A DNA stretch of 64,000 bases, from positions 23,808,001 to 23,872,000 of the forward strand of contig OX485804.1 in the NCBI GenBank assembly GCA_950295325.1, read 5' to 3'. The stretch comes from Polytrichum commune (lineage: Eukaryota > Streptophyta > Polytrichopsida > Polytrichales > Polytrichaceae). Positions within the stretch are counted from its first letter, which is position 1, and the number at the start of each line of letters is the position of its first letter. The notes under the pieces are model-generated. The model had not been told where the DNA came from. It saw only the letters and a program-made list of their open reading frames with translations, and did no database searches. The position numbers and the translations under genes are program-made. Positions 1 to 33,282 of this stretch are shown here, in pieces.

Positions 1-1230
1 GGTGAGGTTCCTGATTTCTCAAACTAATGGAATGTCAACTTTCTTCCATTTTTGATTCCTTGCTCTCTGCCTTGTGCCCTACGGGTGAACGCCCGTGGGC
101 CATGTAACAAGTAACTTGGTTAGGCATGTCTTTATGAGGCACTTTGGTTGGTTCTGAGTATGTAAACTAGTTTGTGTGTGAGGCCTCGGATCCGAGGCCT
201 CTCGGCTGAGGCCACTTGAGGTTTTTTGATTCAAAGTATAACTTGTATGAATGAGGCACTTTGCTTGTTTTTGAGGATGTAAACTAGTTTGTGAATGAGG
301 CCTCGGATCGGAGGCCTCTTTTATGTGTTCCAAAACAAGTGTACGGAAGAGGCACTTTGGTTTGTTTTGAGTATGTAAACTAGTTTGTGAATGAGGCCTC
401 GGATCCGAGGCCTCTTTTATGTGTTCCAAAACATGTGTACGGATGAGGCACTTTGGTTTGTTTTGAGTATGTAAACTAGTTTGTGAATGAGGCCTCGGAT
501 CCGACGCCTCTTTTATGTGTTCCAAAACATGTGTACGGATGAGGCACTTTGGTTTGTTTTGAGTATGTAAACTAGTTTATAAATGAGGCCTCGGATCCGA
601 GGCCTCTTTTATGTGTTCCAAAACATGTGTACGGATGAGGCACTTTGGTTTGTTTTGAGTATGTAAACTAGTTTGTGAATGAGGCCTCGGATCCGAGGCC
701 TCTTTTATGTGTTCCAAAACAAGTGTACGGAAGAGGCACTTTGGTTGGTTTTGAGTATGTAAACTAGTTTGTGTGTAAGGCCTCGGATCCGAGGCCTCTC
801 GGCCGAGGCCACTTGAGGTTTTGTGATTCAAAGTATAACTTGTATGAATGAGGCACTTTGCTTGTTTTTGAGGATGTAAACTAGTTTGTGAATGAGGCCT
901 CGGATCCGAGGCCTCTTTTATGTGTTTCAAAACATGTGTACGGATGAGGCATTTTGGTTTGTTTTGAGTATGTAAACTAGTTTGTGAATGAGGCCTCCGA
1001 TCCGAGGCCTCTTTTATGTGTTCCAAAACAAGTGTACGGAAGAGGCTCTTGGTTGGTTTTGAGTATGTAAACTAGTTTGTGTGTAAGGCCTCGGATCCGA
1101 GGCCTCTCAGCCGAGGCCACTTGATGTTTTTTGATTCAACGTATAGCTTGTATGAATGAGGCACTTTGCTTGTTTTTGAGTATGTAAACTAGTTTCAAAA
1201 TGAGGCCTCGGATCTGAGGCCTCCTTTTAG
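1..1230. repeat. Diverged left part of the palindromic satellite
   Basis: The segment holds about a dozen copies of the 22-bp palindrome (half-site GAGGCCTCGGA), most about 96 bp apart. They are mixed with longer variant units in which the palindrome is followed by TCGGCCGAGGCC and then a CAAAGTATAACTTGTATGAATG-type stretch. Single-base variants of the palindrome occur near 309, 505 and 999. Positions 78-105 carry a second imperfect inverted repeat, ACGGGTGAACGCCCGT, which recurs in the 682-bp units further right. The minus-strand open frames here are by-products of a repeat length divisible by three. Confidence 0.9.
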
Positions 1231-1440
1231 TGCCCTCGATCAGCAGTCCCCAGGGAGTGGCTCCCGGGACTGCGAATGTTTAAACAGGCATAATTTCCTT
1301 CAATTTTGCTCAAATGGAGCAAGTGAGGTGTCCATCGGCATCTACATTTCACGTAGATGACGATAGAGTGGTTGATTGTTAGATTCGGAGACAACACGTG
1401 GAAGATATGGAGGTCTGAAGCTGCCGGGGGGGGGAAATGT
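1230..1440. repeat. ~210-bp block inside the satellite, related to the dispersed LTR-like repeat
   Basis: This non-palindromic block recurs at about 4402-4612 and 4889-5095 inside the satellite. It shares a clear order of short matches (GGGAGTGGCTCC, AGGCATAA(C/T)TTCCT, CATCGGCATCTAC, GAGTGGTTG) with the repeat at 51790-52758 and, in reverse orientation, with 35559-36482. All three satellite copies end in a run of G after GAAGCTGC. The block looks like a captured piece of that dispersed repeat which was then amplified with the array. Confidence 0.75.
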
Positions 1441-1474
1441 GTTTTGTTAAGTGCATATGTAGGAGCTAGGAGAA

Positions 1475-4258
1475 GAGGCCTCGGATCCGAGGCCTCTTTT
1501 ATGTGTTCCAAAACAAGTGTACGGAAGAGGCACTTTGGTTTGTTTTGAGTATGTAAACTAGTTTGTGAATGAGGCCTCGGATCCGAGGCCTCTTTTATGT
1601 GTTCCAAAACATGTGTACGGATGAGGCACTTTGGTTTGTTTTGAGTATGTAAACTAGTTTGTGAATGAGGCCTCGGATCCGAGGCCTCTTTTATGTGTTC
1701 CAAAACATGTGTACGGATGAGGCACTTTGGTTTGTTTTGAGTATGTAAACTAGTTTGTGAATGAGGCCTCGGATCCGAGGCCTCTTTTATGTGTTCCAAA
1801 ACAAGTGTACGGATGAGGCACTTTGGTTTGTTTTGAGTATGTAAACTAGTTTGTGAATGAGGCCTCGGATCCGAGGCCTCTTTTATGTGTTCCAAAACAT
1901 GTGTACGGATGAGGCACTTTGGTTTGTTTTGAGTATGTAAACTAGTTTGTGAATGAGGCCTCGGATCCGAGGCCTCTTTTATGTGTTCCAAAACATGTGT
2001 ACGGATGAGGCACTTTGGTTTGTTTTGAGTATGTAAACTAGTTTGTGAATGAGGCCTCGGATCCGAGGCCTCTTTTATGTGTTCCAAAACATGTGTACGG
2101 ATGAGGCACTTTGGTTTGTTTTGAGTATGTAAACTAGTTTGTGAATGAGGCCTCGGATCCGAGGCCTCTTTTATGTGTTCCAAAACAAGTGTACGGATGA
2201 GGCACTTTGGTTTGTTTTGAGTATGTAAACTAGTTTGTGAATGAGGCCTCGGATCCGAGGCCTCTTTTATGTGTTCCAAAACATGTGTACGGATGAGGCA
2301 CTTTGGTTTGTTTTGTGTATGTAAACTAGTTTGTGAATGAGGCCTCGGATCCGAGGCCTCTTTTATGTGTTCCAAAACATGTGTACGGATGAGGCACTTT
2401 GGTTTGTTTTGAGTATGTAAACTAGTTTGTGAATGAGGCCTCGGATCCGAGGCCTCTTTTATGCGTTCCAAAACATGTGTACGGATGAGGCACTTTGGTT
2501 TGTTTTGAGTATGTAAACTAGTTTGTGAATGAGGCCTCGGATCCGAGGCCTCTTTTATGTGTTCCAAAACATGTGTACGGATGAGGCACTTTGGTTTGTT
2601 TTGAGTATGTAAACTAGTTTGTGAATGAGGCCTCGGATCCGAGGCCTCTTTTATGTGTTCCAAAACATGTGTACGGATGAGGCACTTTGGTTTGTTTTGA
2701 GTATGTAAACTAGTTTGTGAATGAGGACTCGGATCCGAGGCCTCTTTTATGTGTTCCAAAACATGTGTACGGATGAGGCACTTTGGTTTGTTTTGAGTAT
2801 GTAAACTAGTTTGTGAATGAGGCCTCGGATCCGAGGCCTCTTTTATGTGTTCCAAAACATGTGTACGGATGAGGCACTTTGGTTTGTTTTGAGTATGTAA
2901 ACTAGTTTGTGAATGAGGCCTCGGATCCGAGGCCTCTTTTATGTGTTCCAAAACATGTGTACGGATGAGGCACTTTGGTTTGTTTTGAGTATGTAAACTA
3001 GTTTGTGAATGAGGCCTCGGATCCGAGGCCTCTTTTATGTGTTCCAAAACATGTGTACGGATGAGGCACTTTGGTTTGTTTTGAGTATGTAAACTAGTTT
3101 GTGAATGAGGCCTCGGATCCGAGGCCTCTTTTATGTGTTCCAAAACATGTGTACGGATGAGGCACTTTGGTTTGTTTTGAGTATGTAAACTAGTTTGTGA
3201 ATGAGGCCTCGGATCCGAGGCCTCTTTTATGTGTTCCAAAACATGTGTACGGATGAGGCACTTTGGTTTGTTTTGAGTATGTAAACTAGTTTGTGAATGA
3301 GGCCTCGGATCCGAGGCCTCTTTTATGTGTTCCAAAACATGTGTACGGATGAGGCACTTTGGTTTGTTTTGAGTATGTAAACTAGTTTGTGAATGAGGCC
3401 TCGGATCCGAGGCCTCTTTTATGTGTTCCAAAACATGTGTACGGATGAGGCACTTTGGTTTGTTTTGAGTATGTAAACTAGTTTGTGAATGAGGCCTCGG
3501 ATCCGAGGCCTCTTTTATGTGTTCCAAAACATGTGTACGGATGAGGCACTTTGGTTTGTTTTGAGTATGTAAACTAGTTTGTGAATGAGGCCTCGGATCC
3601 GAGGCCTCTTTTATGTGTTCCAAAACATGTGTACGGATGAGGCACTTTGGTTTGTTTTGAGTATGTAAACTAGTTTGTGAATGAGGCCTCGGATCCGAGG
3701 CCTCTTTTATGTGTTCCAAAACATGTGTACGGATGAGGCACTTTGGTTTGTTTTGAGTATGTAAACTAGTTTGTGAATGAGGCCTCGGATCCGAGGCCTC
3801 TTTTATGTGTTCCAAAACATGTGTACGGATGAGGCACTTTGGTTTGTTTTGAGTATGTAAACTAGTTTGTGAATGAGGCCTCGGATCCGAGGCCTCTTTT
3901 ATGTGTTCCAAAACATGTGTACGGATGAGGCACTTTGGTTTGTTTTGAGTATGTAAACTAGTTTGTGAATGAGGCCTCGGATCCGAGGCCTCTTTTATGT
4001 GTTCCAAAACATGTGTACGGATGAGGCACTTTGGTTTGTTTTGAGTATGTAAACTAGTTTGTGAATGAGGCCTCGGATCCGAGGCCTCTTTTATGTGTTC
4101 CAAAACATGTGTACGGATGAGGCACTTTGGTTTGTTTTGAGTATGTAAACTAGTTTGTGAATGAGGCCTCGGATCCGAGGCCTCTTTTATGTGTTCCAAA
4201 ACAAGTGTAAGGAAGAGGCTCTTGGTTGGTTTTGAGTATGTAAACTAGTTTGTGTGTA
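1475..4258. repeat. Homogeneous 96-bp satellite array, 29 phased palindromes
   Basis: Perfect or near-perfect 22-bp palindromes start at 1475, 1571, 1667 and so on to 4163. Since (4163-1475)/96 is exactly 28, there are 29 palindromes with no indel between them. Each contains GGATCC and two AGGCCT sites. Units differ by only a few substitutions, for example AAGTGT versus ATGTGT after CCAAAAC, CGTTCC for TGTTCC near 2464, and GAGGACTC at 2725. Because 96 is 32 codons, the minus strand stays open for 990 codons as a 32-residue repeat. That frame shows no sign of being a gene. Confidence 0.97.
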
Positions 4259-5255
4259 AGGCCTCGGATCCGAGGCCTCTCGGCCGAGGCCACTTGATGT
4301 TTTTTGATTCAATGTATAGCTTGTATGAATGAGGCACTTTGCTTGTTTTTGAGTATGTAAACTAGTTTCAAAATGAGGCCTCGGATCCGAGGCCTCCTTT
4401 TAGTGCCCTCGATCAGCAGTCCCCAGGGAGTGGCTCCCGGGACTGCGAATGTTTAAACAGGCATAACTTCCTTGAATTTTGCCCAAATGGAGCAAGTGAG
4501 GTGTCCATCGGCATCTACATTTCATGTAGATGAGGATAGAGTGGTTGATTGTTAGATTCGGAGACAACACCTGGAAGATATGGTGGTCTGAAGCTGCCGG
4601 GGGGGGAAATGTGTTTTGTTAAGTGCATATGTAGGAGCTAGGAGAAGAGGCCTCGGATCCGAGGCGTCTTTTATGTGTTCCAAAACTAGTGTACGGATGA
4701 GGCACTATGGTTGGTTTGGAGTACGTAAATTACTTTGTGTGTGAGCCCTCGGATCCGAGGCCTCTCAGCCGAGGCCACTTGAGGTTTTTTGATTCAACGT
4801 ATAGCTTGTATGAATGAGGCACTTTGCTTGTTTTTGAGTATGTACACTAGTTTCAAAATGAGGCCTCGGATCCGAGGCCTCCTTTTAGTGCCCTCGATCA
4901 GCAGTCCCCTGGGAGTGGCTCTCGGGACTGCGAATGTTTAAACAGGCATAACTTCCTTGATTGTTGCCCAAATGGGGCAAGTGAGGTGTCCATCGGCATC
5001 TACATTTCACGTAGACGACGATGGAGTGGTTGATTGTTAGATTCGGAGACCACACGTGGAAGATATGGAGGTCTGAAGCTGCGGGGGGGGGGATTGTATT
5101 TTGTTAAGTGCATAAGTAGGAGCTTTGGGAAGAGGCCTCGGATCCGAGGCCTTTTTTTGTGTCAAGGTTTGTGCTTGAAAAATGAAAATGTTAGGTTCAT
5201 TTTTGAATTCTCTCGGCCATTTTCTGTAGTATGTATTTCATAAGGAGGGGCATTC
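4259..5255. repeat. Transition zone between 96-bp array and 682-bp units
   Basis: The zone holds diverged palindrome units (near 4260, 4375, 4647, 4746, 4860, 5132) and two further copies of the ~210-bp captured block. It reads as an older, more diverged flank of the homogeneous array, with several palindromes carrying one or two substitutions. Confidence 0.85.
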
Positions 5256-5259
5256 GGAA

Positions 5260-8200
5260 GAGGCCTCGGATCCGAGGCCTCATTTTTGTGTCAAGGTATG
5301 TGCATGAAAAGTTAGGTTTTAACATGATCAAATGTGTGCCCCACGGGTGAACACCCGTGGGCCATGTAACAGGTAACTTGGGTAGGATTTAGCATCATCA
5401 CGGGGCGATGTCTCCATGTCAAAATTTTTTTTAAATTATGAGTTTTTTTTCTCTATATTCATAACCATTGATTATACCTTTTGGTTATTTTTTTGAAATT
5501 TTTTGTCATCTTCATTTTTCCTAGTAATTGTTTTAGTTGAATTCTGCGTCATTCTAGGTAGAAATGGTATGTTTTCTAGAAAAATATGATCATCAAATTT
5601 GGTCATGCTATTTTACTTCGTAGTAGATATCATGTATATCTACCTTCCAAAAAAATTTGAGAAAATTTTGACCCATTTGGTGGATGCAACTTGGCAATGG
5701 AGTGACCTCCCCTGGAACATCATCAAATGTGAACCTCACGGGTGAACACCCGTGAGCCATGTAACAAGTAAATTGGTTAGGTTTTAAAATCATCAAGGAG
5801 GGGCATTTGGAAGAGGCCTCGGATCCGAGGCCTCATTTTTGAGTCAGGTTGTCTGCTTGAAAAATGAAAATGTTAGGTTCATTTTTGAATTCTCTCGGCC
5901 ATTTTCTGTAGTATGTATTTCATAAGGAGGGGCATTCGGAAGAGGCCTCGGATCCGAGGCCTCATTTTTGTGTCAAGGTATGTGCATGAAAAGTTAGGTT
6001 TTAACAAGATCAAATGTGTGCCCCACGGGTGAACACCCGTGGGCCATGTAACAGGTAACTTGGGTAGGATTTAGCATCATCACGGGGCGATGTCTCCATG
6101 TCAAATTTTTTTTTAAATTATGAGTTTTTTTTCTCTATATTCATAACCATTGATTATACCTTTTGGTTATTTTTTTGAAATTTTTTGTCATCTTCATTTT
6201 TCCTAGTAATTGTTTTAGTTGAATTCTGCGTCATTCTAGGTAGAAATGGTATGTTTTCTAGAAAAATATGATCATCAAATTTGGTCATGCTATTTTACTT
6301 CGTAGTAGATATCATGTATATCTACCTTCCAAAAAAATTTGAGAAAATTTTGACCCATTTGGTGGATGCAACTTGGCAATGGAGTGACCTCCCCTGGAAC
6401 ATCATCAAATGTGAACCTCACGGGTGAACACCCGTGAGCCATGTAACAAGTAAATTGGTTAGGTTTTAAAATCATCAAGGAGGGGCATTTGGAAGAGGCC
6501 TCGGATCCGAGGCCTCATTTTTGAGTCAGGTTGTCTGCTTGAAAAATGAAAATGTTAGGTTCATTTTTGAATTCTCTCGGCCATTTTCTGTAGTATGTAT
6601 TTCATAAGGAGGGGCATTCGGAAGAGGCCTCGGATCCGAGGCCTCATTTTTGTGTCAAGGTATGTGCATGAAAAGTTAGGTTTTAACAAGATCAAATGTG
6701 TGCCCCACGGGTGAACACCCGTGGGCCATGTAACAGGTAACTTGGGTAGGATTTAGCATCATCACGGGGCGATGTCTCCATGTCAAATTTTTTTTTAAAT
6801 TATGAGTTTTTTTTCTCTATATTCATAACCATTGATTATACCTTTTGGTTATTTTTTTGAAATTTTTTGTCATCTTCATTTTTCCTAGTAATTGTTTTAG
6901 TTGAATTCTGCGTCATTCTAGGTAGAAATGGTATGTTTTCTAGAAAAATATGATCATCAAATTTGGTCATGCTATTTTACTTCGTAGTAGATATCATGTA
7001 TATCTACCTTCCAAAAAAATTTGAGAAAATTTTGACCCATTTGGTGGATGCAACTTGGCAATGGAGTGACCTCCCCTGGAACATCATCAAATGTGAACCT
7101 CACGGGTGAACACCCGTGAGCCATGTAACAAGTAAATTGGTTAGGTTTTAAAATCATCAAGGAGGGGCATTTGGAAGAGGCCTCGGATCCGAGGCCTCAT
7201 TTTTGAGTCAGGTTGTCTGCTTGAAAAATGAAAATGTTAGGTTCATTTTTGAATTCTCTCGGCCATTTTCTGTAGTATGTATTTCATAAGGAGGGGCATT
7301 CGGAAGAGGCCTCGGATCCGAGGCCTCATTTTTGTGTCAAGGTATGTGCATGAAAAGTTAGGTTTTAACAAGATCAAATGTGTGCCCCACGGGTGAACAC
7401 CCGTGGGCCATGTAACAGGTAACTTGGGTAGGATTTAGCATCATCACGGGGCGATGTCTCCATGTCAAATATTTTTTTAAATTATGATTTTTTTTCTCTA
7501 TATTCATAACCATTGATTATACCTTTTGGTTATTTTTTTGAAATTTTTTGTCATCTTCATTTTTCCTAGTAATTGTTTTAGTTGAATTCTGCGTCATTCT
7601 AGGTAGAAATGGTATGTTTTCTAGAAAAATATGATCATCAAATTTGGTCATGATATTTTACCCCGTAATAGATATCATGTATATCTACCTTCCAAAAACA
7701 TTTGAGAAAATTTTGACCCATTTTGGTGATGCAACTTGGCAATGGAGTGACCTCCCCTGGAATATCATCAAATGTGAACCTCACGGGTGAACACCCGTGA
7801 GCCATGTAACAAGTAAATTGGTTAGGTTTTAAAATCATCAAGGAGGGGCATTTGGAAGAGGCCTCGGATCCGAGGCCTCATTTTTGAGTCAGGTTGTCTG
7901 CTTGAAAAATGAAAATGTTAGGTTCATTTTTGAATTCTCTCGGCCATTTTCTGTAGTATGTATTTCATAAGGAGGGGCATTCGGAAGAGGCCTCGGATCC
8001 GAGGCCTCATTTTTGTGTCAAGGTATGTGCATGAAAAGTTAGGTTTTAACAAGATCAAATGTGTGCCCCACGGGTGAACACCCGTGGGCCATGTAACAGG
8101 TAACTTGGGTAGGATTTAGCATCATCACGGGGCGATGTCTCCATGTCAAATATTTTTTTAAATTATGATTTTTTTTCTCTATATTCATAACCATTGATTA

Positions 8201-8690
8201 TACCTTTTGGTTATTTTTTTGAAATTTTTTGTCATCTTCATTTTTCCTAGTAATTGTTTTAGTTGAATTCTGCGTCATTCTAGGTAGAAATGGTATGTTT
8301 TCTAGAAAAATATGATCATCAAATTTGGTCATGATATTTTACCCCGTAATAGATATCATGTATATCTACCTTCCAAAAACATTTGAGAAAATTTTGACCC
8401 ATTTTGGTGATGCAACTTGGCAATGGAGTGACCTCCCCTGGAATATCATCAAATGTGAACCTCACGGGTGAACACCCGTGAGCCATGTAACAAGTAAATT
8501 GGTTAGGTTTTAAAATCATCAAGGAGGGGCATTTGGAAGAGGCCTCGGATCCGAGGCCTCATTTTTGAGTCAGGTTGTCTGCTTGAAAAATGAAAATGTT
8601 AGGTTCATTTTTGAATTCTCTCGGCCATTTTCTGTAGTATGTATTTCATAAGGAGGGGCATTCGGAAGAGGCCTCGGATCCGAGGCCTCA
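5260..8690. repeat. 681/682-bp higher-order satellite repeat, five copies
   Basis: Copies begin with a palindrome at about 5260, 5942, 6624, 7306, 7987 and 8668. Each unit has two palindromes 553 and 129 bp apart, two imperfect inverted repeats around ACGGGTGAACACCCGT, and an AT-rich core of about 317 bp. Copies 1-3 are nearly identical to one another at 682 bp. Copies 4-5 form a second type at 681 bp with shared differences such as CCCCGTAATAG and TTTTGGTGATGC. Short minus-strand frames of 62-67 codons in every copy are repeat artefacts. Confidence 0.95.
5399..5715. mobile_element. Fossil hAT-like MITE embedded in each higher-order unit
   Basis: The segment begins CACGGGGCGATGTC and ends TGGAGTGACCTCCCCTGG. 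Its terminal inverted repeats are degraded versions of those at 60801-61210, and its AT-rich body matches that element over most of its length (for example TTTAGTTGAATTCTGCGTCA versus TTTAGTTCAATTCTGTGTCA). It is flanked by AGCATCAT on the left and AACATCAT on the right, a 7/8 match expected of an old 8-bp target duplication. Equivalent copies lie at 6081-6397, 6763-7079, 7445-7760 and 8126-8441. The insertion therefore predates amplification of the unit. Confidence 0.8.
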
Positions 8691-9300
8691 TTTTTGTGTC
8701 AAGGTATGTGCATGAAAATTTAAAATGTTATGCTCATTTTTAAATGCGCTTGGCCCTATTGTTTTGGGTAGTGCATAAGTAGGTATTTTGTAAAGAGGCC
8801 TCGGATCCGAGGCCTCATTTTTGTGTCAAGGTATGTGCTTGAAAAATGAAAATCTTATGTTCATTTTCGAATGCTCTCGGCCTTTTTGTTTTGGGTAGTG
8901 AATAAGTATGTGTTTTGGGAAGAGGCCTCGGATCCGAGGCCTTATGTTTGTGTGAATTTTATGCTAGAAAAATCAAAATGTTATGTTCGTGTAAGATTGC
9001 TCTCGGCCTTCTTGTTTTGGGTACTACATGAGTAAGAGGTTTGTGAAGAGGCCTCGGATCCGAGGCCTCATTTTGGAGACAATGTATGGGCTTTAAAAGT
9101 CAAACTGCTATGTTCACATAACATTTCTCTCGGCCTTTTTCTTTTGGGTAGTGCATGAGGAGGAGGTAGGAAAAGAGGCCTCGGATCCGAGGCCTCTCAT
9201 TCGTAGGTAGGTTAGTGCTAGAGTTTACCACTTGACTTAGCATTCGGCCATTACCATTTGTAGTTTGCTCTCGGCCTTGTATTGTTTTTGTGAGGATTTG
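8691..9300. repeat. Diverged ~125-130-bp satellite monomers at the gene edge
   Basis: Palindromes at about 8795, 8926, 9048 and 9175 are spaced about 124-131 bp apart. Each is followed by a tail containing CTCTCGGCC(T)TT and TTTTGGGTAGTG. The 129-bp spacing also appears inside the higher-order units, so this is probably the older monomer form. A last CTCTCGGCCTTGTATTG tail at 9268-9286 lies beyond the final palindrome, about 85 bp before the start codon of the next gene. Confidence 0.85.
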
Positions 9301-9368
9301 TTTCTTTATAGTTACGAAGTTATTGACTTTTCTTTGTGAAATTCTCATTTTCTCCATGTTCTTAGGAT
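9197..9368 (+). promoter_or_regulatory. Putative 5' leader/promoter of the ParB-methyltransferase gene
   Basis: This is the only sequence between the last palindrome (9175-9196) and the ATG at 9369. It still contains a satellite-monomer tail, so the promoter or 5' leader is at least partly satellite-derived. TTCTTAG ends three bases before the ATG and could be a 3' splice site of a leader intron. No convincing TATA box was seen. Confidence 0.35.
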
Positions 9369-12300
9369 ATGGACTCTTCACAGGTTGCGCAATCGCAACC
9401 CCAATCTGGAGAGGATGTTGTTCTTGCGGCCCCCGCGGTTGAAGTTGAAGCTGTGCAGGTTGAGAGTCTAAATTCGCAGGGCCCATTACAAATAGAGGTG
9501 AGTTGGATAGTTGTTGAGTAATTTGTTGAGCAAGTTTTTTGAGTTCTAGCTTTCTAAGTATGGTTTTACTATTTGTGTTTTTGTTAGGCTCTCGCAATAA
9601 GCGAAAATGCCGTTCAAGCAGTTGCCGACACGGATCCCGTGGTGTGTGAGCTTGAGCTTCGGAAATCACAAAATGAGGACTCCATTGGTGTTATCCAACG
9701 CCTCCGGATTAAGCCAACATGTAAATCCCGCTTATCCATTCCTTTGTGCCGCTTGAGAGCCCTCCCTCTCGTCCGTCCTATAAGTGAGGTTGAGGTGCAA
9801 CGCTTGGAATGTGAATTTGTAATGGGATACCGAGAGGGTGATCGGGTTCTTTACGTGTCTGCTTTCAACGACGTTCCCGTGGACCTCCCCATTCCCCTTG
9901 GTATTATGGCCTCTTGGAGCCCTCTCTGGCAAGAGGCCTCCGCAAAATTTGACGCCAAACTCAAGGAGGATCCGGATCTTGCACATTTCGCCGGGAAGAT
10001 GTTATTCGTCTGGGAAGGCAATCATCGTCTCACCGCTTGGTGGAGACACATCAATAACCACCACGCCGATGACAAGAGTTGGCATATCTCGGTGGGTTGC
10101 ATTGTTGTTGACCCTAGAGGATACACCGGTGTATTTCTCAATGCCATGAGCGACATTAATTGGTAAGCTCACTCATTTTTTTCATTTATTTTTTATTTTT
10201 GTTTCAATTCTTTTCCATTCTTTTCACCTCACGTTCCTCACATATTTTCTCTCAGGTCAACCGAGCATGATTATGTCAAGGCAAACATTCCGACCAAGCT
10301 CCTTCAAATCCGCACTTTTGGAAAGTTAGAGTTGTCCACCTTCAAGGATCTCATATCGCCATCTGACTACAAAGTATGCGAGAAGATAAAGGAGAGTCGT
10401 CCAACTTGGTACACCTTGACCGCGGATGTGTTCGTTAAGTTTCTTTACAAGGTATGGTTTGTGCATTCAATCATTTAGAACTTCCAACATAGACAATTTC
10501 TATGCCGATTATATGAACTCACAAGATCATTTCTTGCAGAGAGACATTTCGGCTCAAGCAGACCTTGCAGTGAGGCATTACCGTGAGACCACACCCGTTG
10601 CGGAGAGATCGGCCACTGAGATTTGGAATGTTATGACCAAGGCCCAGGAGAGGACAATCAAAAGTATTCGGGCCCGTTCTTTTGAGAAGTACATATCCGT
10701 TGCACACCCTGACAATGGAGAGGATTTTTTTCATGAGGTACTCTTTTGAACTCAAATCAATCTTGAACGCAATTCATCCAAATCACTCTTCAACTCTATT
10801 ACTCTTTTGAACTCAAATCATTTTTATTTTGTGCACAGATTGACCGCCATTTTAATGAGTTCTTTTCGACGGACATGACAATTGAAAAATTGCAAAAAAT
10901 TGTTACATGCCCGGTCGAACCTTCGTTCAAAGCTAAGTGGCTTTACTGGTGGAACGGCCCCCTTCGTGAAAGGTTAGATAACAAGTTCCCCGTCGACAAG
11001 CCTATGAGGGAGAGGGCTTTGGACGACTGGCTACACAAGGCGTCCTTCTGGGCTCAGGTAAATCCATTCCTCGGCCTTCTTCATTTTCATTTTCCTCTAT
11101 TCCATTTATCTCATATCTAATCATCTCCCTCTCTGCAGTTGGAGAAGGAAGTCGCGGTTGAAATTGAGACCTTAGAGGAGAGCCTCTCCGTCGACATTGA
11201 TTGGGACGCATCAGAAACTATCTTGCGCCCTCGTGAGTACGTTGATCATTGGCGGATTGTCCTTTGGGACAAGGCCTTCAAACCTTACCTCAGCGATAAG
11301 CTTGACATCGCCTTTGCCAAAGATGATAATCTCTTGGAGTTCGAGGAGGGGGCTCTCGCTATCAAGCGTGTGGCCTATCGGTAATACATCTATCCTCCAC
11401 TTTGCACCTCTCCTTAATTTCATTTCTTGCTCGTTTTCTTGGTTTTCTTACATTCTTGTTTTGTCATGTAGGTATATCATGAGAGAATTGGTTGTGAAGA
11501 ATGCATTGGCCTCATCTTCCTTGCCGGACTACCTCTCGGACTGGGTGAATATTTTTTCTAGCCTCTGCGTGTACACGACCGCGCAAACAAACAAGTTCTC
11601 CGAATTGCACTTGCAAGGTGGTGGATGGTACTTGGATTGTACTGCAGGATTTGTCCCCGGGGAAGAGAAGGCTTTGTTTGCTAGCCTTGTGGGTAGTGCT
11701 CCGGATGATAACATTGTTACCTTGGAGGAGCCTGACATCGTTGAGCTTCCCCCTCCTCCTTCTAAGGCACCAAGGAGAAAGGGCAGAGCAAAGAAGACCG
11801 CCACTCAAGCATCTTCCCAAGTTCTCATTCGGTCTGCTTCTAAGACCCCAGTTGAGCCACCCACCCTCCCACACAGTCCATCTATCGTTCCCTCCGTTGC
11901 TCCCTCTCTTGCCCCCTCTGTTACTCCATCTGCATTTCATCCACAATCTCTTGCCACTCCATCTCATAGTGGCATTTCTCTCCTCTCTTTGCCTCGCAAG
12001 AGGAAGGCCGCTCTCTTGGATACCAGTGCCACCTCTTCGGATGCCCCTAACACGCTTTCCCTCATCGAAAATGTGGACATGGTTCAACTAATGCTGGATT
12101 CCGAGGTTGCCGGAGGTCCCCTCCCCGCATATACCCGCATCCAAGAGTTCATTGCCAAGGTTTGTATACTTGCCTTCGTCAATTCTCAATTTTTTTTTCC
12201 TTTGCTTTGATTATTTCTTTCCTTCTTATTTTCTCATGAAGTTTCAATTGCAGGTTGGGGCAGGTCGTTCCCGTGTGAACACCTCGACTACAACTCACAA

Positions 12301-13542
12301 GGGCCTCGATTTGCTCTTCGCCGACATTCCCGAGAATTTGCCGGTGCCGAACATCTCCACCGATGTTCCTGCTTGGAACAAGCTCCATGAATCATACTAT
12401 GAGTGTATTTTTGCATTTGCGAAATCTAACCTCTATGATCATGGTGTCTTTGTTCTTGCCCATTGTGCGAGTGCCAGTGTTTCTAGGAGTATTTTCGATT
12501 GGGCACACACTTATGACTTCTACGTCGCGGAAGATTGGTTTGGAATGAATGATTTGGACCTCCAATCTCCCGTTGTTCCCTCTGGAGTGGTAAGCAAGTC
12601 TCCCTCTCTTCCCCTTCCGTATTGCTTATCATTTCAATTTCAATTCCATTTCATGTTCATTGTTGCAGACTCGGAAGTTCAGCATCAAAGTTCTTGTTCG
12701 TATTAACTCCGTTCTTAGAGTGCGGGAGGAGGCCATACAAGAGTATGGTTACAACCTCCAACGAGATGGATGGTTGAATACCTTCACCGATGAAAAGAGC
12801 CAGGCGATGCGCAGTGATGGGGTACCTTGGCGAGGTGCCCATGAGAAGCATCCTATTTTTTTTTCCATCCTTCTCGCTACTCTCACCGACAAGAATGATG
12901 TTATTATGGACTGGCAGTGTGGTGTAGGTACGCCTTGTTTTTCAACTTCATCCTTACTTTGAATTTTCTATTATTTTTCCTTGACTAGTTTCCATACTAA
13001 CATTTTACCTCTCGTTGCTTTAGGTGGTTCGATTACAGCATGTCGCTCCCTTGAGCGGCATATTGTGGCCCTTGAGAGTGACCCCGTCATTTTCAATTCA
13101 CTCCTACTCCCCATGCGCGATCCCCAGCCTGCGCGTTTATCTCGCTCAGTTACCGCACCGTCTACATCTATCTTTGATCCTCCTCAAAAGATGACCAAGA
13201 GGGCATTCGGATTCCTTTGTGCGTAAGTTTGCTTTTTATATTTTGCCATGTTTGCCTTTATTTCAAATTCTCATTTTCTAGTGTCATCATGTTTCTAATC
13301 ATTTTGCTTGGGTGTTTAGAGAGCCAGCGGAGGTCGCAGTCATTCGTCGAGACATGTTTTCAAGTCCTCCGAAGCCGTTTGAGCTTCCCCCGTATGCTAG
13401 TGCAATGGCGGATAGTTTTGCGAAGGCGGAGTCCCCATCTCCTCCTCGCGTTCGTCATTTCTCGCGTGGGACACGAAATCTTTTCTTGTTAGAAGCAAAT
13501 GAGGGTGAGGAGAGTGATAGGGAATGTTCTCCAAGCCCTTAG
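9369..13542 (+). CDS. ParB-like domain + beta-class DNA methyltransferase-like protein, 11 exons
   Basis: Eleven exons join in frame at GT-AG sites: 9369-9497, 9588-10162, 10256-10451, 10540-10737, 10839-11057, 11139-11380, 11472-12159, 12254-12589, 12669-12927, 13024-13222 and 13320-13542, giving 1087 aa. Residues ~65-260 resemble the ParB/Srx fold: a box EGNHRLTAW at 186-194, then a strand-rich stretch and AMSDINW. Exon 7 adds a basic patch (PRRKGRAKK) and a Ser/Pro-rich linker. The C-terminal part has N4/N6-methylase features in beta-class order: DLLFADIPEN (motif IV position, ~768-777), then HEKHPI (~920) and VIMDWQCGVGGS (motif I, ~939-950) followed by ALESDP. ParB-methylase fusions are known from phages and bacteria; the family call here is by eye. 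The DPPY-type catalytic motif reads DIPE, so activity is doubtful. The unbroken splice frames argue for a functional gene. Confidence 0.72.
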
Positions 13543-13597
13543 TTTATCATTTTGGTTTTGGAGATTATAACTCCGTTTGTTGTTGTTATCCGGCTTT

Positions 13598-13603
13598 AAT
13601 AAA
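13598..13603 (+). terminator. Poly(A) signal AATAAA
   Basis: A canonical AATAAA lies 56 bp after the stop codon of the ParB-methyltransferase gene, in a T/G-rich context (GTTGTGTGTTGGTTTT follows). It is a plausible 3'-end signal for that transcript. Confidence 0.5.
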
Positions 13604-14790
13604 AGTTGTGTGTTGGTTTTATTTTTGATATCCGGCGCAAGTTTCATTCTTTCTCTCCATTATTTCATATTCATAATGTCAATCCGCATTGCATTCTTTA
13701 TTTTTTCTTCATCATTCGGATCTCTTAACTTCTAGTCACAAAACAATCTAGCTCTCGGCTCTTAGTGTGAGATCTTAGTTATAGGGGGACCATACTTTCT
13801 ATTAGTGTGGATGGTTTATTTTATGGTTGTGCACACTAATCACATTGGCCGTCTTCCAATCCCAATTGCTATATAGCAATTGGAAGTTTTGTTTGGCACG
13901 CGAACATAACCTCGTCAAACTTTTTAAATTGAACTTCATGTTGTTCTCAAAGAGTCGGCACGTCACCTCAAAAATTTCCAAGAGGATTCTAAGGTTGAAC
14001 TTGGGGGATTTGTCTTTGAGGTCTTTGGCTAAGCTAAGGACTGAATTGGAAGGCTGTTATGGTGCGACGGAGTTTTATGGCATGTTCTTTGGATCATTTT
14101 ACCCATATTGGACATGCCCGGCAGATAGGGTGTAGATGGCCCCAAACTAGAGTATATAGCTATTTTAACTAACTACCCATTTTTGTAAGTCTTGAGGTTG
14201 GCTACATTTTGTTAACCAATAAAATATTTTGTGTATGGTATTTTGATTTCAATTTGGTGACGTCGGCCTTAATTTAATATGATACATTTGAAAACATATA
14301 CTATAAGATGTTTGATAATAAATGCAATCTTCCACGCCTATAGGATCCGTTGGTTTCTCAAACAATTCTGGGTTATTATGTCCACGGGAATGGGGGTACC
14401 TTTCCAAATATAGAATTCAAACTATCTCTAATTCCACGGAAATAGGCACTGCTTCTCCTAAAATTACCCAACAAAATCTAAATTTTCCGCTCTCCAATCT
14501 CCGCTCTCCGCTCTCCGCTCTACGCTCACATACTTGAGTTTCCCTGCGGACACGCGGCAGCCCCCGGTTTTAGGTGCCTGCACGGCCTCCAGTGGGTTGG
14601 GCATAGGGTCACAGTCGGCCATAGGTCTTCTCCGATGCCGAGGTGCATAGATCCTCTTACCTACGTCCGCTAGTCTCCATTGTGGTGTCTGCTGCAACGC
14701 CGATGTGTTGCTTTTCCTACGGCGCTGCGCTGCCTTCCCACGCCCTTGTGTTGCTTTTCCGATGCGTTGTGTTGCTTTTGGGTGTCCAAG
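13604..14790. other. Intergenic stretch, no recognised gene
   Basis: The stretch contains a perfect 22-bp AT-rich palindrome at 13862-13883 (half-site CCAATTGCTAT), AATAAA-like signals near 14218, and a short tandem of CTCCGCTCT units at 14489-14523. Open frames up to ~147 codons around 14464-14987 overlap on both strands in GC-rich sequence and are not convincing. The left end of the CACTA element should lie here or just inside 14.8 kb, but no clean CACTA terminus was found. Confidence 0.6.
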
Positions 14791-17700
14791 ATGTTGCGGA
14801 CACGGGATCGCACTGGGAAGCGCAAGGAGATGTCTCCAGCAACATTGGTAGAACACAGGCGCGCAGCTGGAGAGCGGCGATCCAAGGCCAGAGAGGACCC
14901 GCGGCATGTGGCTGGGAGGCGTGGCTCACCCCCGGCAAGACGCCGCCGCATAATCGAGGTATCATCATCATCGGAGGATGCGGTTGAGGACGTGCCGGAG
15001 CAATCCTGGAGGTAAGTGGGTCTTTCTCCTCCTTTCCTGACCTCTTCCTGGTGTTGATGCTAGCGTAGAGCACAACCAGTCTTCATCGTTGCGATGTCCG
15101 CGCCTGTTCGACCAGTTCAATTGAGCCGCGTCTAGGCCCATGTGTCACAGTGGATGTCGGTTAGACATCTGGTTGTCCAAGTGGACGCCCAATTTGAAAA
15201 GTGACATTTCGATCTCTGCTGGAATCAGAGTCGGGGCGTGGGCATAATCGGTATTGCAGTCTGCGCAATTAGTAGACATCACCTGTAGTTGTCTCTAGCA
15301 GGTCCTTAGAGCGTCCCCACCCTAAAACCCTGTAGCAATGTACTATGCTAGACACAGACACAGACACAGACACAAACACAAACACAAACACAAACCACGC
15401 CACGCTCCAGCTCCCTGGAGCTCCATGAATTTTTTCTTTTATACCTGCAACTTGGGGTTTTGATGACGGTTATGGGACCATGAGCTTTTGACCACCCTGA
15501 TCTGCAGTCACTAAAAGACTGCAGATTTGTTTTGTGGGTTTTACAGCTGAAATTTTAAGAATTTGGGGGCATGTTATATACCGTTGGAAAGGTATTGAAA
15601 ATATCTTTCCAGCGGTATATAACATGCCCCCAAAGTCTTGAAATTGCAGCTGGAAAACCAAGAAAACAAATCTGCAGTCTTTAAGAACCCATTTCAAGAT
15701 GGTTTAGGTTTCTCGCACTATTTCAGTTTCGCGTGATGGGTAATCTTCCTGGGCTCTCAACATCCAGGTTGTTATTTCTTTCACTCAACCAATTCACGTG
15801 TGACGGGTAGTTTTTTTGTACTCTGAACCCTCAGATGGCCATTTCTCACACTCAACCAGCTTGAACATCGTGATTGGTAATCTTCCTGAACTCTGAAGTT
15901 GCTCGACCATGCTCTTGACTGCGTGTATGATTCATAGGGGCAGTAACTGGTTGCAATGTGGCTGCTCAAGCTCAGTGGGTAGTCGCATATGTGTGCACCT
16001 GGAGATTCCTTGATTGTGGAATGTGGTTGTTGTAGCCGAGGATACGCAACCAACTCGGGCACGGAATCAGACGGCGATCAGGAGAACAGTGATGGGATTG
16101 AAACATCACATCCACTACCAACACGTAAGGGAGGGGGGGAGCACTGCCTTGAAGAAACGTGTGGAGCTGGATGCGCAAGGGCAGCCTTTTGGCGCCATGA
16201 AGGCTGTCCTGTGAGCCGACATCAAGAAATATGCAAAGGACTTGGATCCCACGACGGGATGGGAAGGCCAGCCACGGCACGAGAGGAAGCGATTATTCAA
16301 ACGCCTATACACAGGTAAGGTTTGCACATCAATTTTTTGGCATGCATGTGTCGCGTTAATTTGCGATGTGAAACCCGAATCTGACATTTTAAGTACAACC
16401 AAACATCATTCTGGACATGAGCAACAGGGTGTATGTCTATGTAGGCAGGCATGACATTCTCGCTGACGTCAGGGTGGACATGTATTTAGCACAGAGTGTC
16501 ATGCTGACAATCTGTGAGTGGATGCCGAACAAGACGTCCGTGCGTTTTTGTGGACATGTGTACTGAAACGCTCGACAATCGCTATCGACGTCCATAGGGA
16601 CGTCGATGATATCAATTTTCTCTCTTGTGGTGACATACTGGTTTGTACCCTTTCTAACGTGGGTGTAGTGTGGGCACCCAGTGTTGGTCGCTTGTGAAGT
16701 GAATGTGATGGCATTGACGTGTGTGTCCGGCATGCAGACTAGGAGATGTGCGGGCATTGTGACAAAGTGTGCGAGAAGTGGATGCGGCCTATTATAACAA
16801 AGGTACTCATCAACACCCGGTGGAGGTTAAACCAGCTCATAGACAACAATGCGGGTAAACCAGCCGATGTGGATGCAGAGCATTGGAAAACACTTGTAGG
16901 TATGCGCGCCACCAAGGCTGCGCATTTGAAGTCTCACCACATGCGCTCAATTTCAAAAGGGAAAGGATCGACCACAGCTCAACTGAAAGCTATTGAAAGG
17001 GAGGTCATCTCCCGTCTGGTAAGAGTGCCACTATGTCTATGTTGACATGGCTGACAATGTTGCAATTCTCTTTATAAATCTGTGATGGCCCTTATCCCCT
17101 ACAATGTCAATGTCGACAACAGATGTCATCCAACACGTTTACTTAGACGTCCGATGAGCCGGCAATGTAACTCTAGTTGTTTGAGTTGATGTTCGATGTT
17201 AATCATGGCACTTTCAAAGGCGTCACGGGACCTGCACCTATTGGAACGCATTGTTGTCGACGTCCCCTTTCATCCGTAATGACTTTAATGTGCCATGCAG
17301 GCGATGTTGAAGAACAGGGCACCGTACGATACGGAGGTTGACGCCGAGGTTGCCAAAGAGTACCAACGCATACAGGAGGAAAAGCGCCGAGCGCGTCCCA
17401 ATCATGGCTCGGAAATGAAGTCGATGCACACTCGAGTGACGGATTTGGAGGGCAACGTCACACGCCTTGGAGAGAATGTGGCAGCCTCAAACAAGCGCAT
17501 GGAGGACATGATGCGAATGATTCTTCAGAATCAGAGTCAGAAACATCCGACTAACATTGATAGCATGACGGAGCCTTCATCGTCTGCGAAGATGCTCGAT
17601 ATTTCGGCATTGACGTCAACGACGGAGGATCTGGTGATGGTGGCACAGAAACAAGCTCCCACCCCAGTTATCAGCGCGGTGGGCGGTGCGGACATGCGTG

Positions 17701-18436
17701 TGGCGTCCGCGATTCCTGTCCCGAGCGACGTCTCCGAGGATGCTGCGACTGATGCAGTCACAGACGTAGAAGCAGTGCCTCCCGGCTTTGAAACCATTAT
17801 CGCGTCTATAATTGAGGACATTCTCGAAGTGCCGAAAAAAACGACACAGACACCTGTAATTGATGACCTTGTAGAACCCACCAACGAGGAAGTGCCAGTG
17901 CAAGCTATGGAGGACGTCGAGGAAGGACACCCTGAGATATCCGGCAATGCGGACGTGCCTGAAGAGATTGCATCTCTGGATCAGGTAACATCAAGTAACA
18001 CCCACCCATATTAGACATACTGGAAATCCTCTCATCGTCGTTTAAAAAATTATACCTTCATGTATTTGTCTAGCATGTTCTTCGTGGTGTCATTGAGAAT
18101 GTCAACATGTACATTAGGCTGGACGCTTGCCTTGACAGTTTGAATTATCGCAGAACAAAACGACCATAATTTGAAACCTCCAAGTACTAATGCGGAATGC
18201 TATTACAGGATGAGGTGCCCGTACCGGAGGAGTCAGGTGGCCGACCCCGCCGTGCGGGTAGAAGCGCACAAGCGAAATCCTCAATGGCCAAACTCGGTGC
18301 ACCAAAAGCGGTTGGTTTGCCTAAACCTCCCCAAAATCTTGCGAAGGTGAGGGAACTAGTGTTTGCATGCCTACATTGCTTGCATGATTGCAGGAGGAGT
18401 GTGGAGCACTCGAATATAGTCACGTCGTTCGTGTGA
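14791..18436 (+). pseudogene. CACTA-associated (En/Spm 'Transposase_24'-like) multi-exon gene, broken
   Basis: Likely exons are 14791-15011 (Arg-rich start, donor GTAAGT), ~16036-16314, 16738-17020, 17301-17984 and 18209 to ~18347 or 18436. Exon 2 carries REGGSTALKKRVELDAQGQP, reminiscent of the plant Ptta/En/Spm second protein. Exon 3 continues with WRLNQLIDNN and KAAHLKSHHMRS. Exon 4 has a coiled-coil-like stretch (VTDLEGNVTRLGENVAA) and an acidic, Ala/Val-rich tail. The frame is broken by TGA at 16212-16214 and by TAG just after the 16738 splice site. Its place inside an element ending in a CACTA terminus supports the call. The family assignment rests on by-eye similarity and element context, so it is moderate. 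Confidence 0.5.
15513..15683. repeat. ~170-bp foldback (imperfect inverted repeat)
   Basis: Two arms of about 80 bp face each other around a short loop near 15598. Inner arms read GGGGGCATGTTATATACCG and CGGTATATAACATGCCCCC. Outer arms read AAGACTGCAGATTTG and CAAATCTGCAGTCTT. It lies in the first intron of the CACTA gene and could be a small foldback element or a hairpin-forming RNA. Confidence 0.85.
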
Positions 18437-18439
18437 GTC

Positions 18440-19049
18440 CATTTCATGTTCGGATGACCACTAATGTAATTCATGCGGTTTTGTGAATGGTGGTGGAATG
18501 GGGCAGGTGGGGACTAGTACGAAGGCACAGACACAAAATGGGAAATGAGTGGACGTTCTCAATAACGACGCGGCTCTCCATTCGAGTGCTCATGAATTAT
18601 CCACTTAGTCGTGGAGGTGTAGACTCGCGACTATAGACATGGATGCCTCGATCATGGACAATGTTTAAGTTTTTGGGCAACTAGCGATTGATGTGTAAAT
18701 GCAGCCTCTTGGTTGCAATATGTTGTATCAATGAAAACGTTGCATTTACGGAATTGGAAAGCATTGGTGTACATTTGTTCCACGCGTTCTTTGTGTCTGT
18801 TCCGACTGTCTGGTGGAACAGTTGACGTCGGTGTTTGTTCTCGTAGATGGCATAAGTGACGGGCATCTGACATTTGGTCCTGCTAATAGCCAAACAACTT
18901 GATGTCAGTAATGTGTTTGAGAATTTGAGGCAATCAGCCACGTCAAGGCGGGCTAAGCTTGAAAACGGCATCATCACTCCCAAACAAGCTGTGGTTTTGG
19001 CCAGAGGACATCCCCATAATTTGTAATGCCCCATTTGATGTCACACATA
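18440..19049. other. Interior of the CACTA element, no recognised gene
   Basis: Between the last likely exon and the motif-rich subterminal region there are only short overlapping frames on both strands. Nothing recognisable was found. Confidence 0.5.
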
Positions 19050-19584
19050 ACATCCCACTGTCAAAAAGGATGTCCAAGAAAACTAAAAGTCACCCCGAAA
19101 ACACCCAAAAAATACATGCGTACGTCGAGGAAAATGTCTCATGTGACATTTTCGTGTCGCAGAGGACGTCGGTAACAGCACACATCGCCACGTAATGCAA
19201 TGTCCACGTCAGCAACAACGAATGCCACGTCAGTTTTTAATCACATTCCACGTCATCTCAAGAAGGTCCACGAGGCCATCCACGTCACCGAGGGGGCGGA
19301 TAAAAAAGCGTGCCGACGTGGCACTGCCCGCAAAAAACATGCTTGCGTGGCATGCCGGTGGCGTCCACGTGTCTTCACGTGGACACTATGGAACACCATG
19401 TTTTATGTGACGTCACATAAAAACGTGCTGAAATTCCCCATGTTTTCGCATGTCCACGACGTGTTTTTCTCCTGTCTGACATGACGGATTTTAGGTGACG
19501 TCCAAGAGAAGAACCTCCATATCAAAGTGAACGCGCACTCCCGTTTTTTTTTGACGTCACAAAAAACAGGATTTTCTTATAGTG
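19050..19584 (+). repeat. CACTA right subterminal motif cluster and terminus
   Basis: More than fifteen ACGTC, GACGT or CCACGT cores occur in both orientations, including TGACGTCA-type palindromes near 19408 and 19553. The cluster ends in TTTTTTGACGTCACAAAAAA and TCTTATAGTG. Such clusters are the expected binding sites for the TNPA-like protein of CACTA elements. Confidence 0.75.
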
Positions 19585-26368: not shown

Positions 26369-26687
26369 ATGATTCGTTCAGCTCAAAGTAACAAGGACCT
26401 TTTTCCCCTCCCATCCCTAGGTTTTGTTTTCTCTTTTTGTCGGGTGCTGAAGGTTTTTGTTTTCTCTTCTAGTCGGGCACCGAAGGTTTTGGTTTTCTCT
26501 TTTCGCATAGCCTACTTCTTTTGCCGACAACTGCTTCACTTTTCCTTCTTTCACCTGTTGCTTCCAGTGCTTCTTAGCGTCCCTGCGGTTACTGCTGCCG
26601 CGGGAATCACCGAAAGTCCTGACATTGTCATGGCCTCGTTCTGAAATTCCCTCTCTATCAAATGCAAAGTCAGCTGTGGCTTAAGAT

Positions 26688-27230
26688 ATGGTAGGGGAGT
26701 CTAGAATTTTTAAAAGTACATTTGTTAGTCAATTGAATGGCAATCCTTCTTTGTCTAAAGATCGGTTGACTCGAATTAAATATGGCATATTATATATGAA
26801 GCCTAAACTCCTGAGTGTTGGAAACCATGACACTTTGTTAAAACTTGGTTGTGATTGTGGTGTGTGTTTTTTGAACACACCTGAAGCTAAAACTGTGAAA
26901 AAACGAGGTAGGCCAAAAAAATCTACTCGAGTTAAGGTTTGGTTTGTTAGGAGAGTTTATAGGATGCGGAGGAAGTTTGGTAATCGTTGGGTGGAGTATA
27001 GGGATCCAATTGACTTGATGGACCGTCCATCAAACGTGGAGATTGGTTTATGTTGGTATCAAAAAGGGGCTAACAACAAGTGGACATATGATCTTACTAA
27101 TCATTTGATGATATTAGACTTAGAGACAATAATTGCATTGGCTACAATGACATATATTGGTGAATCAAATGTTTATGAGTTACATCCGGGAGATGAAAAA
27201 GTTTTCAACGACTTTGCTGATGAAAGCTAG
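26688..27230 (+). CDS. Unrecognised 180-aa ORF with an AT-hook-like motif
   Basis: A single uninterrupted frame begins with ATG (MVGESRIFKSTF) and ends in TAG. It contains KKRGRPKKS, a close match to the AT-hook core GRP flanked by Lys/Arg, followed by a basic stretch VRRVYRMRRKF. A pair CDCGVC precedes the hook. The sequence after it is neutral to acidic. Amino-acid composition looks coding, but no family was recognised. It could be a small nuclear DNA-binding protein or a fragment of a domesticated transposon protein. No splice partners were identified. Confidence 0.4.
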   Translation: MVGESRIFKSTFVSQLNGNPSLSKDRLTRIKYGILYMKPKLLSVGNHDTLLKLGCDCGVCFLNTPEAKTVKKRGRPKKSTRVKVWFVRRVYRMRRKFGNRWVEYRDPIDLMDRPSNVEIGLCWYQKGANNKWTYDLTNHLMILDLETIIALATMTYIGESNVYELHPGDEKVFNDFADES

Positions 27231-28894
27231 GATATTTTGTTATACATATCATAGGGGTTGATTATTGTTCAAAAGTATATTTGTATACTTATGTTAATGA
27301 CTATATATGAATGGATGTTTTTTTGTGTATACATATTGTCACTTGTATATTTATTGTTGCAATTGTATGTGTATTACTTCATTTCACAAAAAAATAACTT
27401 GTATATAGGGGATTTTTAGAGTATGCAGTGAACGCACGTGATTCTAGGTTTTAATAAAAGGTGCACCCCCCGAGCATCCTATTGGAGCTTGGAAAGCCAC
27501 ACATTATTCAAGCTTGACACGATTTGGTCACATAAAGATGAGAAATTGTGTACACCTACTCAAAGTCCTTACTGGTAGGTTACTAGTCCAGTGCTAAATA
27601 AAGGCCTAGCTACAATTCTAGGTTGTTCCCAAAGTACCAAGAATACTAATCCAATCCAACAAAAAAATAAGGCTTGGGGTGGCAATTCCCATATTCTATG
27701 CAAGGAAAAAAATTTGGTGTTTGTTTCCAACAATTTAAAAATGCAATATATGGAATTTGAATATTTTAGAGTACTGCTTTGTTGCCGTACTCTTGTAAAA
27801 TCGCAAAATTGCAATTCTAAAACTAGGAAAGATTGATGTTGGTCATGGATGAAGTTGCCAGGGTCATCAAAAAAGTCATAAAATTTGGGTGAATGTGTCC
27901 ATTTTTTGATGAAAATGTTCAATATCATCCATATGTGGCTTCATTACTCTAAAGACTGTTGCCATTTTGGCTATCTTGAATATTTGGGGGAAAGGAATCC
28001 CTGGTCTGTACTAAATCTATAGAATCTTATAAGCTATGTCTGTACAATAGTTGCCCTTGTGATGAGCTTGGAGGAGGGGCAGTCTGTTAAGTTATATCTG
28101 AAAGTTTTAATGAGCATGGGGGAGGCCCCTCCGCCTCAGAATTTTTACTACCTTAGGTCTGTACACATTATGGGAGGAGCCTTCAGGAAGTTTTGGAGAA
28201 AGACTGCTCATTTACTCAATCAAGAAATGCGGGATGCGGGTGTTATTTGGTTACTTTTCTTAATCAGACACTGGCATTTGATTGGTATATGGTTTAGTGA
28301 GGATCACAAATCAAAGACCATAAAGATGCATGTTTAAATGCGATTGTACTGCGTCTTCAAATTCTATCAACTACTCCACACGCAATAGTGAACACAATTG
28401 GGATCAGAATATATGTATTAAGTTAAGAAATGATCAAACGTGCACTTTCGATAACCATAACTAAATTAGGACAGGTCCAATTTTCAATTTGATTTTCATT
28501 GATGTTTCATCATAGATTTTCTAATGCAACACAAAATGTGAAAATGTAAATCTGATCAACAGGAGATGGTAAAAGAGAGAAAAAACGAATGGAATAACAC
28601 AGTCCGTGTGGAATAGATCAGCGAGGACTTTCGGAGCCTGTTAGGACTCTCTCAACTGGTGGGAATCAAACTATTTTAATCAGTTTGAGGAGTTGGACTC
28701 CGACTGACTGGCAGCCTGCTACCTTAGCTTAACATAAAAGGTTCTAGCACTGTCTGCCTTGTGCATTGTGCAAGCCTCCTCATTTATGTGGCCCATTTTT
28801 CTGTTCGTAAGTTAGCAGGACTTTTGAAACTCTCTCTCTTCTCCACACAGTTTGTTGTGCTCCCTGCTGCTGACTAAGTTACTTACAATGTCAT
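27231..28894. other. Intergenic stretch, no convincing gene
   Basis: A 92-codon frame at 28059-28337 (containing FRKFWRKTAHLLNQEMRDAG) and a few shorter frames are present without supporting signals. The rest is AT-rich. Confidence 0.4.
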
Positions 28895-33094: not shown

Positions 33095-33282
33095 ATTGGG
33101 GAGGGCCGTGCCAGAGTTGTAGGTAGTGCTATACTAAGACAATGCCTGCAGGCCTTAGATTAATATCAAGAGACTCAAGAAATTGGATTCATATCAAGAG
33201 ACTCAATGAGGTTCGTACCAGATTTCAAAGTGATAAGACCAGATACTACACTTGATCTTACCCGAAAGGCCGAGAAAGGTAA
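33095..33282 (-). ncRNA. U2 snRNA-like gene or pseudogene, module A
   Basis: Read on the minus strand it starts TTACCTTTCTCGGCCTTTCG and continues GTAAGATCAAGTGTAGTATC, the hallmark 5' half of U2 including the branch-point-pairing GTAGTA. Downstream it has mutations in the usual TTATCAGTTTAATATCTGATA segment (CACTTTGAAATCTGGTA) and a poor Sm-type site. The 3' domain GCACTACC..CTCTGGCACGG is still recognisable, and the length (~188 nt) fits plant U2 (~196). It is the best of the three copies in the branch-recognition region but probably a pseudogene overall. Confidence 0.7.

Follow-up and report, generated by a model that had tools for sequence, protein, structure and literature searches.

The question raised by this locus is what a gene that joins a ParB-type box to a DNA-methyltransferase fold, spread over 11 exons, is doing in the genome of a moss. 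The window analysed is a stretch of 64,000 nucleotides from Polytrichum commune (GenBank assembly GCA_950295325.1, contig OX485804.1, positions 23,808,001 to 23,872,000), and the gene lies at positions 9369 to 13542. The gene is carried by a sizeable Mutator-like DNA transposon (Mutator-like element, MULE) that is still fairly intact and has two main genes, a transposase and the accessory gene in question; the meaningful unit is the transposon and not the gene alone. The features of the element are listed below, in window positions unless a C2 coordinate is given.

1..14544, plus strand: the part of the transposon that falls in the window; in full, the transposon spans 22,805 bp at C2:23799740-23822544
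C2:23800885-23804680, minus strand: open reading frames (ORFs) of the transposase, stop to stop, outside the window
180..9196, no strand: palindrome array, its unit being the 22-bp GAGGCCTCGGATCCGAGGCCTC; the window has 61 copies with at most 3 mismatches, 49 of them exact
5342..8480, no strand: a second motif, the near-palindrome CACGGGTGAACACCCGTG, less frequent, with 10 exact copies
9369..13542, plus strand: transposon accessory gene with 11 exons, coding for 1087 amino acids (from the spliced frame, and from substitution rates and splice sites in copy C of the element)
9696..10163, plus strand: stretch of exon 2 for the N-terminal domain, which includes the ParB/Srx-type box WEGNHRLTAW (residues 185-194)
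12254..12589, plus strand: exon 8, region of methyltransferase motif IV, ADIPE (altered DPPY), aligned to CcrM LIFADPPYNLQL
12669..13222, plus strand: exons 9 and 10 with their intron, motif X/I, S-adenosylmethionine (SAM)-binding DWQCGVGGS...ALESD, split by the intron 12928-13023
14525..14544, minus strand: 3' terminal inverted repeat, reading GGGAAACTCAAGTATGTGAG on this strand; 14544 is the last position of the element
14545..14554, no strand: 3' target-site duplication of 10 bp, TGCGGACACG; its 5' counterpart immediately precedes C2:23799740, beyond the window

The genome searched was the 407.8-Mb assembly in 64 contigs. Element edges were set by comparing copies, and the boundaries are sharp. 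The window element (W) carries the perfect 10-bp duplication TGCGGACACG at both flanks, copy A (C1:2246924-2261912, 14,989 bp) has the flanks TCCTTATATA, and copy C (C1:12936313-12948890, 12,578 bp) has the flanks ACTCACTCCC. A perfect target-site duplication of 10 bp is therefore present in all three copies with both ends read; of copy B only the 3' end was read. The terminal inverted repeats, GGACGACACTTGTATGTGAGCG... and, inverted, GGGAAACTCAAGTATGTGAGCG..., are imperfect and are the same in W and C. The transposase is encoded on one strand and the accessory gene on the other, with an array of 74 palindromes between them, and both genes are under purifying selection between W and C. Five palindrome clusters are found among the matches listed, all on C1, and of eight stretches examined beside palindromes or upstream of the window, four encode relatives of the accessory protein. 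As to the surroundings of copy A, the sequence at 62481-63991 of the window has a reverse-oriented relative (L012 2256-3825, 86-97% identical) that ends exactly at the start of copy A, and copy A was therefore inserted into or beside that stretch.

A protein search with the transposase gave 138 relatives. A model of its relatives best matches the ISCth4 transposase together with a WRKY/GCM-like N-terminal domain, and because of this match the element is classed as Mutator-like, with a DDE transposase of the IS256/MULE type. ISCth4 is taken here to belong to the IS256 family, which is kin to MULEs. Target-site duplications of MULEs span 8-11 bp, and MULEs with accessory genes are already known (PMC6446971). 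The present element shares with MULEs its 10-bp target-site duplication, terminal inverted repeats, ISCth4-like transposase model, WRKY/GCM-like domain and extra ORF. It differs from them in that its transposase ORFs give no Pfam match below an expect value (E) of 0.04, in its long palindrome array and in the methyltransferase-fold accessory protein. Among the Pfam profiles, none for MULE transposases matched either transposase ORF up to E 1.

The accessory gene consists of exons at 9369-9497, 9588-10162, 10256-10451, 10540-10737, 10839-11057, 11139-11380, 11472-12159, 12254-12589, 12669-12927, 13024-13222 and 13320-13542, which splice into a single open frame of 1087 amino acids plus stop. 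All ten introns are GT-AG and measure 79-101 bp. In copy C, whose gene DNA is 80% identical to that of the window copy (20% diverged), GT is retained in 10 of 10 introns and AG in 9 of 10; identity is higher in exons (82.6%) than in introns (72.2%), and the ratio of nonsynonymous to synonymous substitution rates (dN/dS) is 0.189 across 1046 codons. On these three grounds the gene is real: the W-C lineage has been selected for the protein, and the open frame is not due to chance. By segment, dN/dS between W and C is 0.27 for residues 1-87, 0.083 for 88-235, 0.12 for 236-600, 0.30 for 601-745, 0.22 for 746-990 and 0.76 for 991-1087, the lowest value falling on the N-terminal box domain (88-235). 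The protein comprises an N-terminal half with the ParB-type box, a basic linker and a methyltransferase-fold C-terminus. The exon structure proposed by the first-pass annotation is thus confirmed by splicing and by copy C, and the landmarks that it named were located where it had placed them: EGNHRLTAW at residues 186-194, the IV-like LDLLFADIPENLP at 767-779 and the X/I-like region at about 920-967. The accessory gene may extend beyond 1087 amino acids, for two open exons upstream of the window, in L018, can be joined in frame at window position 9366.

Profile comparisons support an N6/N4 DNA-methyltransferase fold for the C-terminus. Searched as a single sequence it gives weak matches (PHROGs, E 0.002; NCBIfam CcrM, E 0.0022; PDB DpnA, E 0.0091 and 0.0096), those below E 0.01 being all methyltransferases, and against Pfam PF01555 the window protein stays below the cut-off (E 0.092, 13.1 bits). 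A profile that includes two paralog rows matches DpnA, the best PDB match, at E 1.6e-5. A divergent paralog at L017/L019 (C1:13834500-13854300), whose exons were joined by hand, has both halves, with 37-40% identity in the aligned parts, and a frame shift just before the box; it passes the Pfam N6_N4_Mtase (PF01555) cut-off (E 3e-6, 27.8 versus 26.7 bits) and matches the PHROGs DNA methyltransferase at E 2.9e-7. Phage genomes searched with the C-terminus gave 69 records (best E 9e-4), and the 30 of these 69 that were listed all lie in annotated methylase or methyltransferase genes. Neither the whole accessory protein nor its residues 745-1020 found any match at E <= 10 in a collection of 5.8 billion proteins, where scoring was limited to candidates with exact words in common (7999 and 3865, respectively) and where intron-rich genes may be missed. 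Two pattern scans of a viral contig collection gave 2 and 5 matches, none of them confirmed.

The motifs run in the order IV then X/I, which marks the beta class of these enzymes, and the SAM-binding motif region is partly conserved between paralogs. Of the beta-class methyltransferase half claimed by the first-pass annotation, the fold and the motif order are upheld by the profiles and the paralog, and the catalytic tetrapeptide is not. Aligned by phmmer to ADPPYNL of CcrM, motif IV of the window protein reads ADIPENL, and the paralog has ADIPEGL; ADIPE is identical in three of three rows (window, L016, L017) and departs from the catalytic pattern (D/N/S)PP(Y/F/W), of which SPPY, NPPY, DPPY/F and DPPW are forms named in PMC8885841. 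Motif I reads DWQCGVGGS, versus DPFMGSGTT in DpnA. Since the catalytic DPPY is replaced by a conserved DIPE, the methyltransferase domain is probably inactive. Conservation of this variant across the distance between the paralogs makes mere decay unlikely and suggests a different chemistry or none.

Counting 13 further palindromes just upstream of the window, the element contains 74 copies, 60 of them exact, in an internal array (element 6353-17457) between the two divergent genes. In 100 shuffles of the window no copy arose, against the 61 observed; genome-wide there are 1903 exact copies, and the pattern read in reverse gives none. Within the window the mean pairwise identity of the palindromes is 98%, versus 49-74% for the flanking blocks. 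When the 74 sites of W are compared with the 18 of C, the palindrome shows 95% identity and its flanking blocks 29, 24, 30 and 21%; random stretches from the two arrays are 26% identical, so that the flanks are at chance level. The spacers have therefore been replaced while the site has been kept. In copy C, 15 of the 18 sites carry one common change (GGGCTC), giving the variant GAGGCCTCGGATCCGAGGGCTC, and 2 of the 18 are exact.

The accessory protein is tentatively proposed, with somewhat less than even confidence, to be a putative palindrome-targeted regulator of the chromatin of its own element, similar to VANC; in this role it may protect the element against silencing. The protein, or a complex containing it, would bind the palindromes of its own element; the binding would change the local chromatin or DNA-methylation state, and the altered state would keep the genes of the element expressed, as VANC does for VANDAL. 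Because the catalytic motif is a conserved DIPE, the methyltransferase fold may serve for binding DNA or SAM instead of working as an active enzyme. VANC is encoded by a MULE; it binds motifs in the tandem repeats of the very element that encodes it and causes silencing marks to be lost (PMC5735166, PMC10398659). The likeness to the VANDAL/VANC system of Arabidopsis lies in a MULE accessory protein and in multiple short target motifs within noncoding tandem repeats (PMC5735166). In the moss element, unlike VANDAL, the motif is a perfect 22-bp palindrome, the spacers and not the motif have turned over, and the palindromes are candidate sites. A further parallel is N4CMT of bdelloid rotifers, which is likewise eukaryotic, has a bacterial-type amino-methyltransferase domain and is linked to transposons and tandem repeats; N4CMT, however, is described as a host gene whose product combines a chromodomain with an active SPPY motif (PMC8885841), whereas the moss gene is part of a transposon and has an altered motif.

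Several observations weigh against this proposal. The accessory protein has no Pfam match up to E 10, and so none to DUF1985 or DUF287 of the VANC family; since no Pfam domain is held in common, it is not filed in the VANC family. The neighbourhood of the divergent paralog shows only two palindromes, 3' of the gene, and the cluster L013/L015 has element sequence and palindromes and no gene in the stretch examined. Among close copies dN/dS is higher overall (0.51 for W and B, 0.48 for W and A) and reaches about 1 or above in some segments of very close copies, where changes are few: 1.66 (W and B) and 0.92 (W and A) in the methyltransferase segment, and 0.95 (W and B) in the first 87 residues. 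Copy A lacks about residues 569-897, and in-frame stops number four in copy B and two in copy C; owing to this damage, the window copy is the only intact one among the four close copies compared. As regards the transposase, the Foldseek match of its model has low TM-scores (template modelling scores, 0.28 and 0.36).

To the same side belong the results on the N-terminal half, which had been called ParB-like. A GxxR box (Box II, P motif) is indeed present and recurs in the paralog, reading EGNHR in W, B and C and DGNHR (DGNHRRQAW in full) in the divergent paralog; the box alone is weak evidence for ParB, and in copy A it reads GNHC. Support from profiles did not follow: no ParB match was obtained in Pfam, NCBIfam or PDB, and those from PHROGs and from one profile-profile test are not significant. 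The best, phrog_1033 'ParB-like partition protein', has E 0.47 and covers the box of the paralog only, and in an hhalign comparison with seven ParB sequences the score was reached by 39 of 100 column shuffles, a test of low power with four rows and no positive control. A single-sequence structure model has a mean pLDDT (predicted local distance difference test) of 38.9, too low to weigh on either side. The gap from the conserved helix to the box, about 60 residues in the analyst's reading, is much longer than in the aligned ParB sequences, and the region found 4 phage-genome records, the best at only E 7. Fusions of ParB with N6/N4-methyltransferases are reported as more frequent in phages (PMC12704722), and examples such as L007 and L008 resemble the present protein in the order of a GxxR-box domain followed by an N6_N4_Mtase fold. 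They measure 430 (L007) and 420 (L008) amino acids, whereas the protein here has 1087, with about 500 amino acids between its two parts, DIPE for DPPY and an N-terminal domain without a ParB profile match. If the N-terminal domain has a ParB fold, nucleoside triphosphate-dependent loading at a palindrome, followed by spreading, would cover the element. The element would then be a plant MULE with a parS-like partition or anti-silencing system of its own, predicted to load on the palindromes, spread and exclude host silencing, with the methyltransferase fold as reader; this extension is considered improbable.

Other explanations of the same gene and array differ in what they leave to the protein. 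As an active N6-adenine or N4-cytosine DNA methyltransferase, it might mark its own element, for example at the GATC in the palindrome centre, so as to label or protect it. The fold, with DpnA as best PDB match, and the partly conserved SAM-binding region suit this idea, as does the central GATC, intact in 74 of 74 sites of W with none of the 15 mismatches falling within it; such a distribution is only marginally unlikely by chance. Motif IV, however, is DIPE in place of DPPY or SPPY in all three rows, motif I is likewise altered relative to DpnA, and rotifer N4CMT loses its activity when the S and Y of SPPY are replaced by A (PMC8885841). An active enzyme is judged unlikely. The palindromes might instead be sites for the transposase or for a host factor of replication, insulation or transcription, the methyltransferase-like protein then having some different function, for example as a cofactor of the transposase. 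Repeated binding sites in the interior are common in transposons, and the array stands between two divergent genes; it is internal, however, and not subterminal, and this explanation is considered rather unlikely.

Two further alternatives would deny the array or the element any part. The array could be a functionless selfish satellite expanded inside the element, as its units of 96, 117, 127 and 552 bp vary in number and are in many cases nearly identical, apparently from recent amplification. Two arrays with unrelated spacers have nevertheless kept the same palindrome, and a mere satellite is very unlikely. Lastly, the first-pass annotation inferred a host gene domesticated after an old bacterial or phage transfer, which would require the adjoining repeats to be there by chance. 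A long intact frame, many introns and purifying selection would be expected of such a gene, but it lies within element ends with target-site duplications and its further copies have the same neighbours. Domestication is not supported, the carrier of the gene being a multi-copy transposon that has terminal repeats and target-site duplications of 10 bp, and this alternative is given hardly any credence.

In the literature searched, a limited library, no description came up of a MULE that has both an accessory gene for a methyltransferase-fold protein and an array of conserved palindromes. If the protein targets the palindromes, the element would represent a second, unrelated solution to the problem met by VANC, that of a transposon countering the silencing of itself alone. 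The palindrome, being short, perfect and present in 1903 genomic copies, lends itself to a binding test in a single experiment. That a transposon carries a methyltransferase fold whose non-canonical motif is conserved also offers a lead on the eukaryotic reuse of bacterial-type DNA-modification domains.

Directly to the right of the MULE, ORFs at 15983-19584 and a terminus CACTATAAGAAAATC at 19570-19584 (minus strand) suggest an element of CACTA type, the other end of which was not found. Membership of the accessory gene in this CACTA-like element was rejected, since the homology edge and the target-site duplication end its own element at 14544. At 15511-15685 lies a long hairpin of two 86-nucleotide inverted arms, 90% complementary and 3 nucleotides apart, which may give rise to small RNAs or be a miniature element.

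The remainder of the window contains clusters of spliceosomal RNA genes at 33101-33873, 42959-44315 and 57761-58780 (three U4, three U2 and one U5), which repeat in differing orientations. A Copia-type retroelement at 37164-41578 has integrase and reverse transcriptase domains over several open frames. A bacterial locus or contamination was set aside in view of the introns, the spliceosomal RNA genes, the Copia element and the 70-Mb contig. An open frame of 181 codons at 26685-27230 includes a weak AT-hook-like stretch (E 0.2); a 96.6% match to 26975-27478 lies in L014, so that this DNA is repetitive too.
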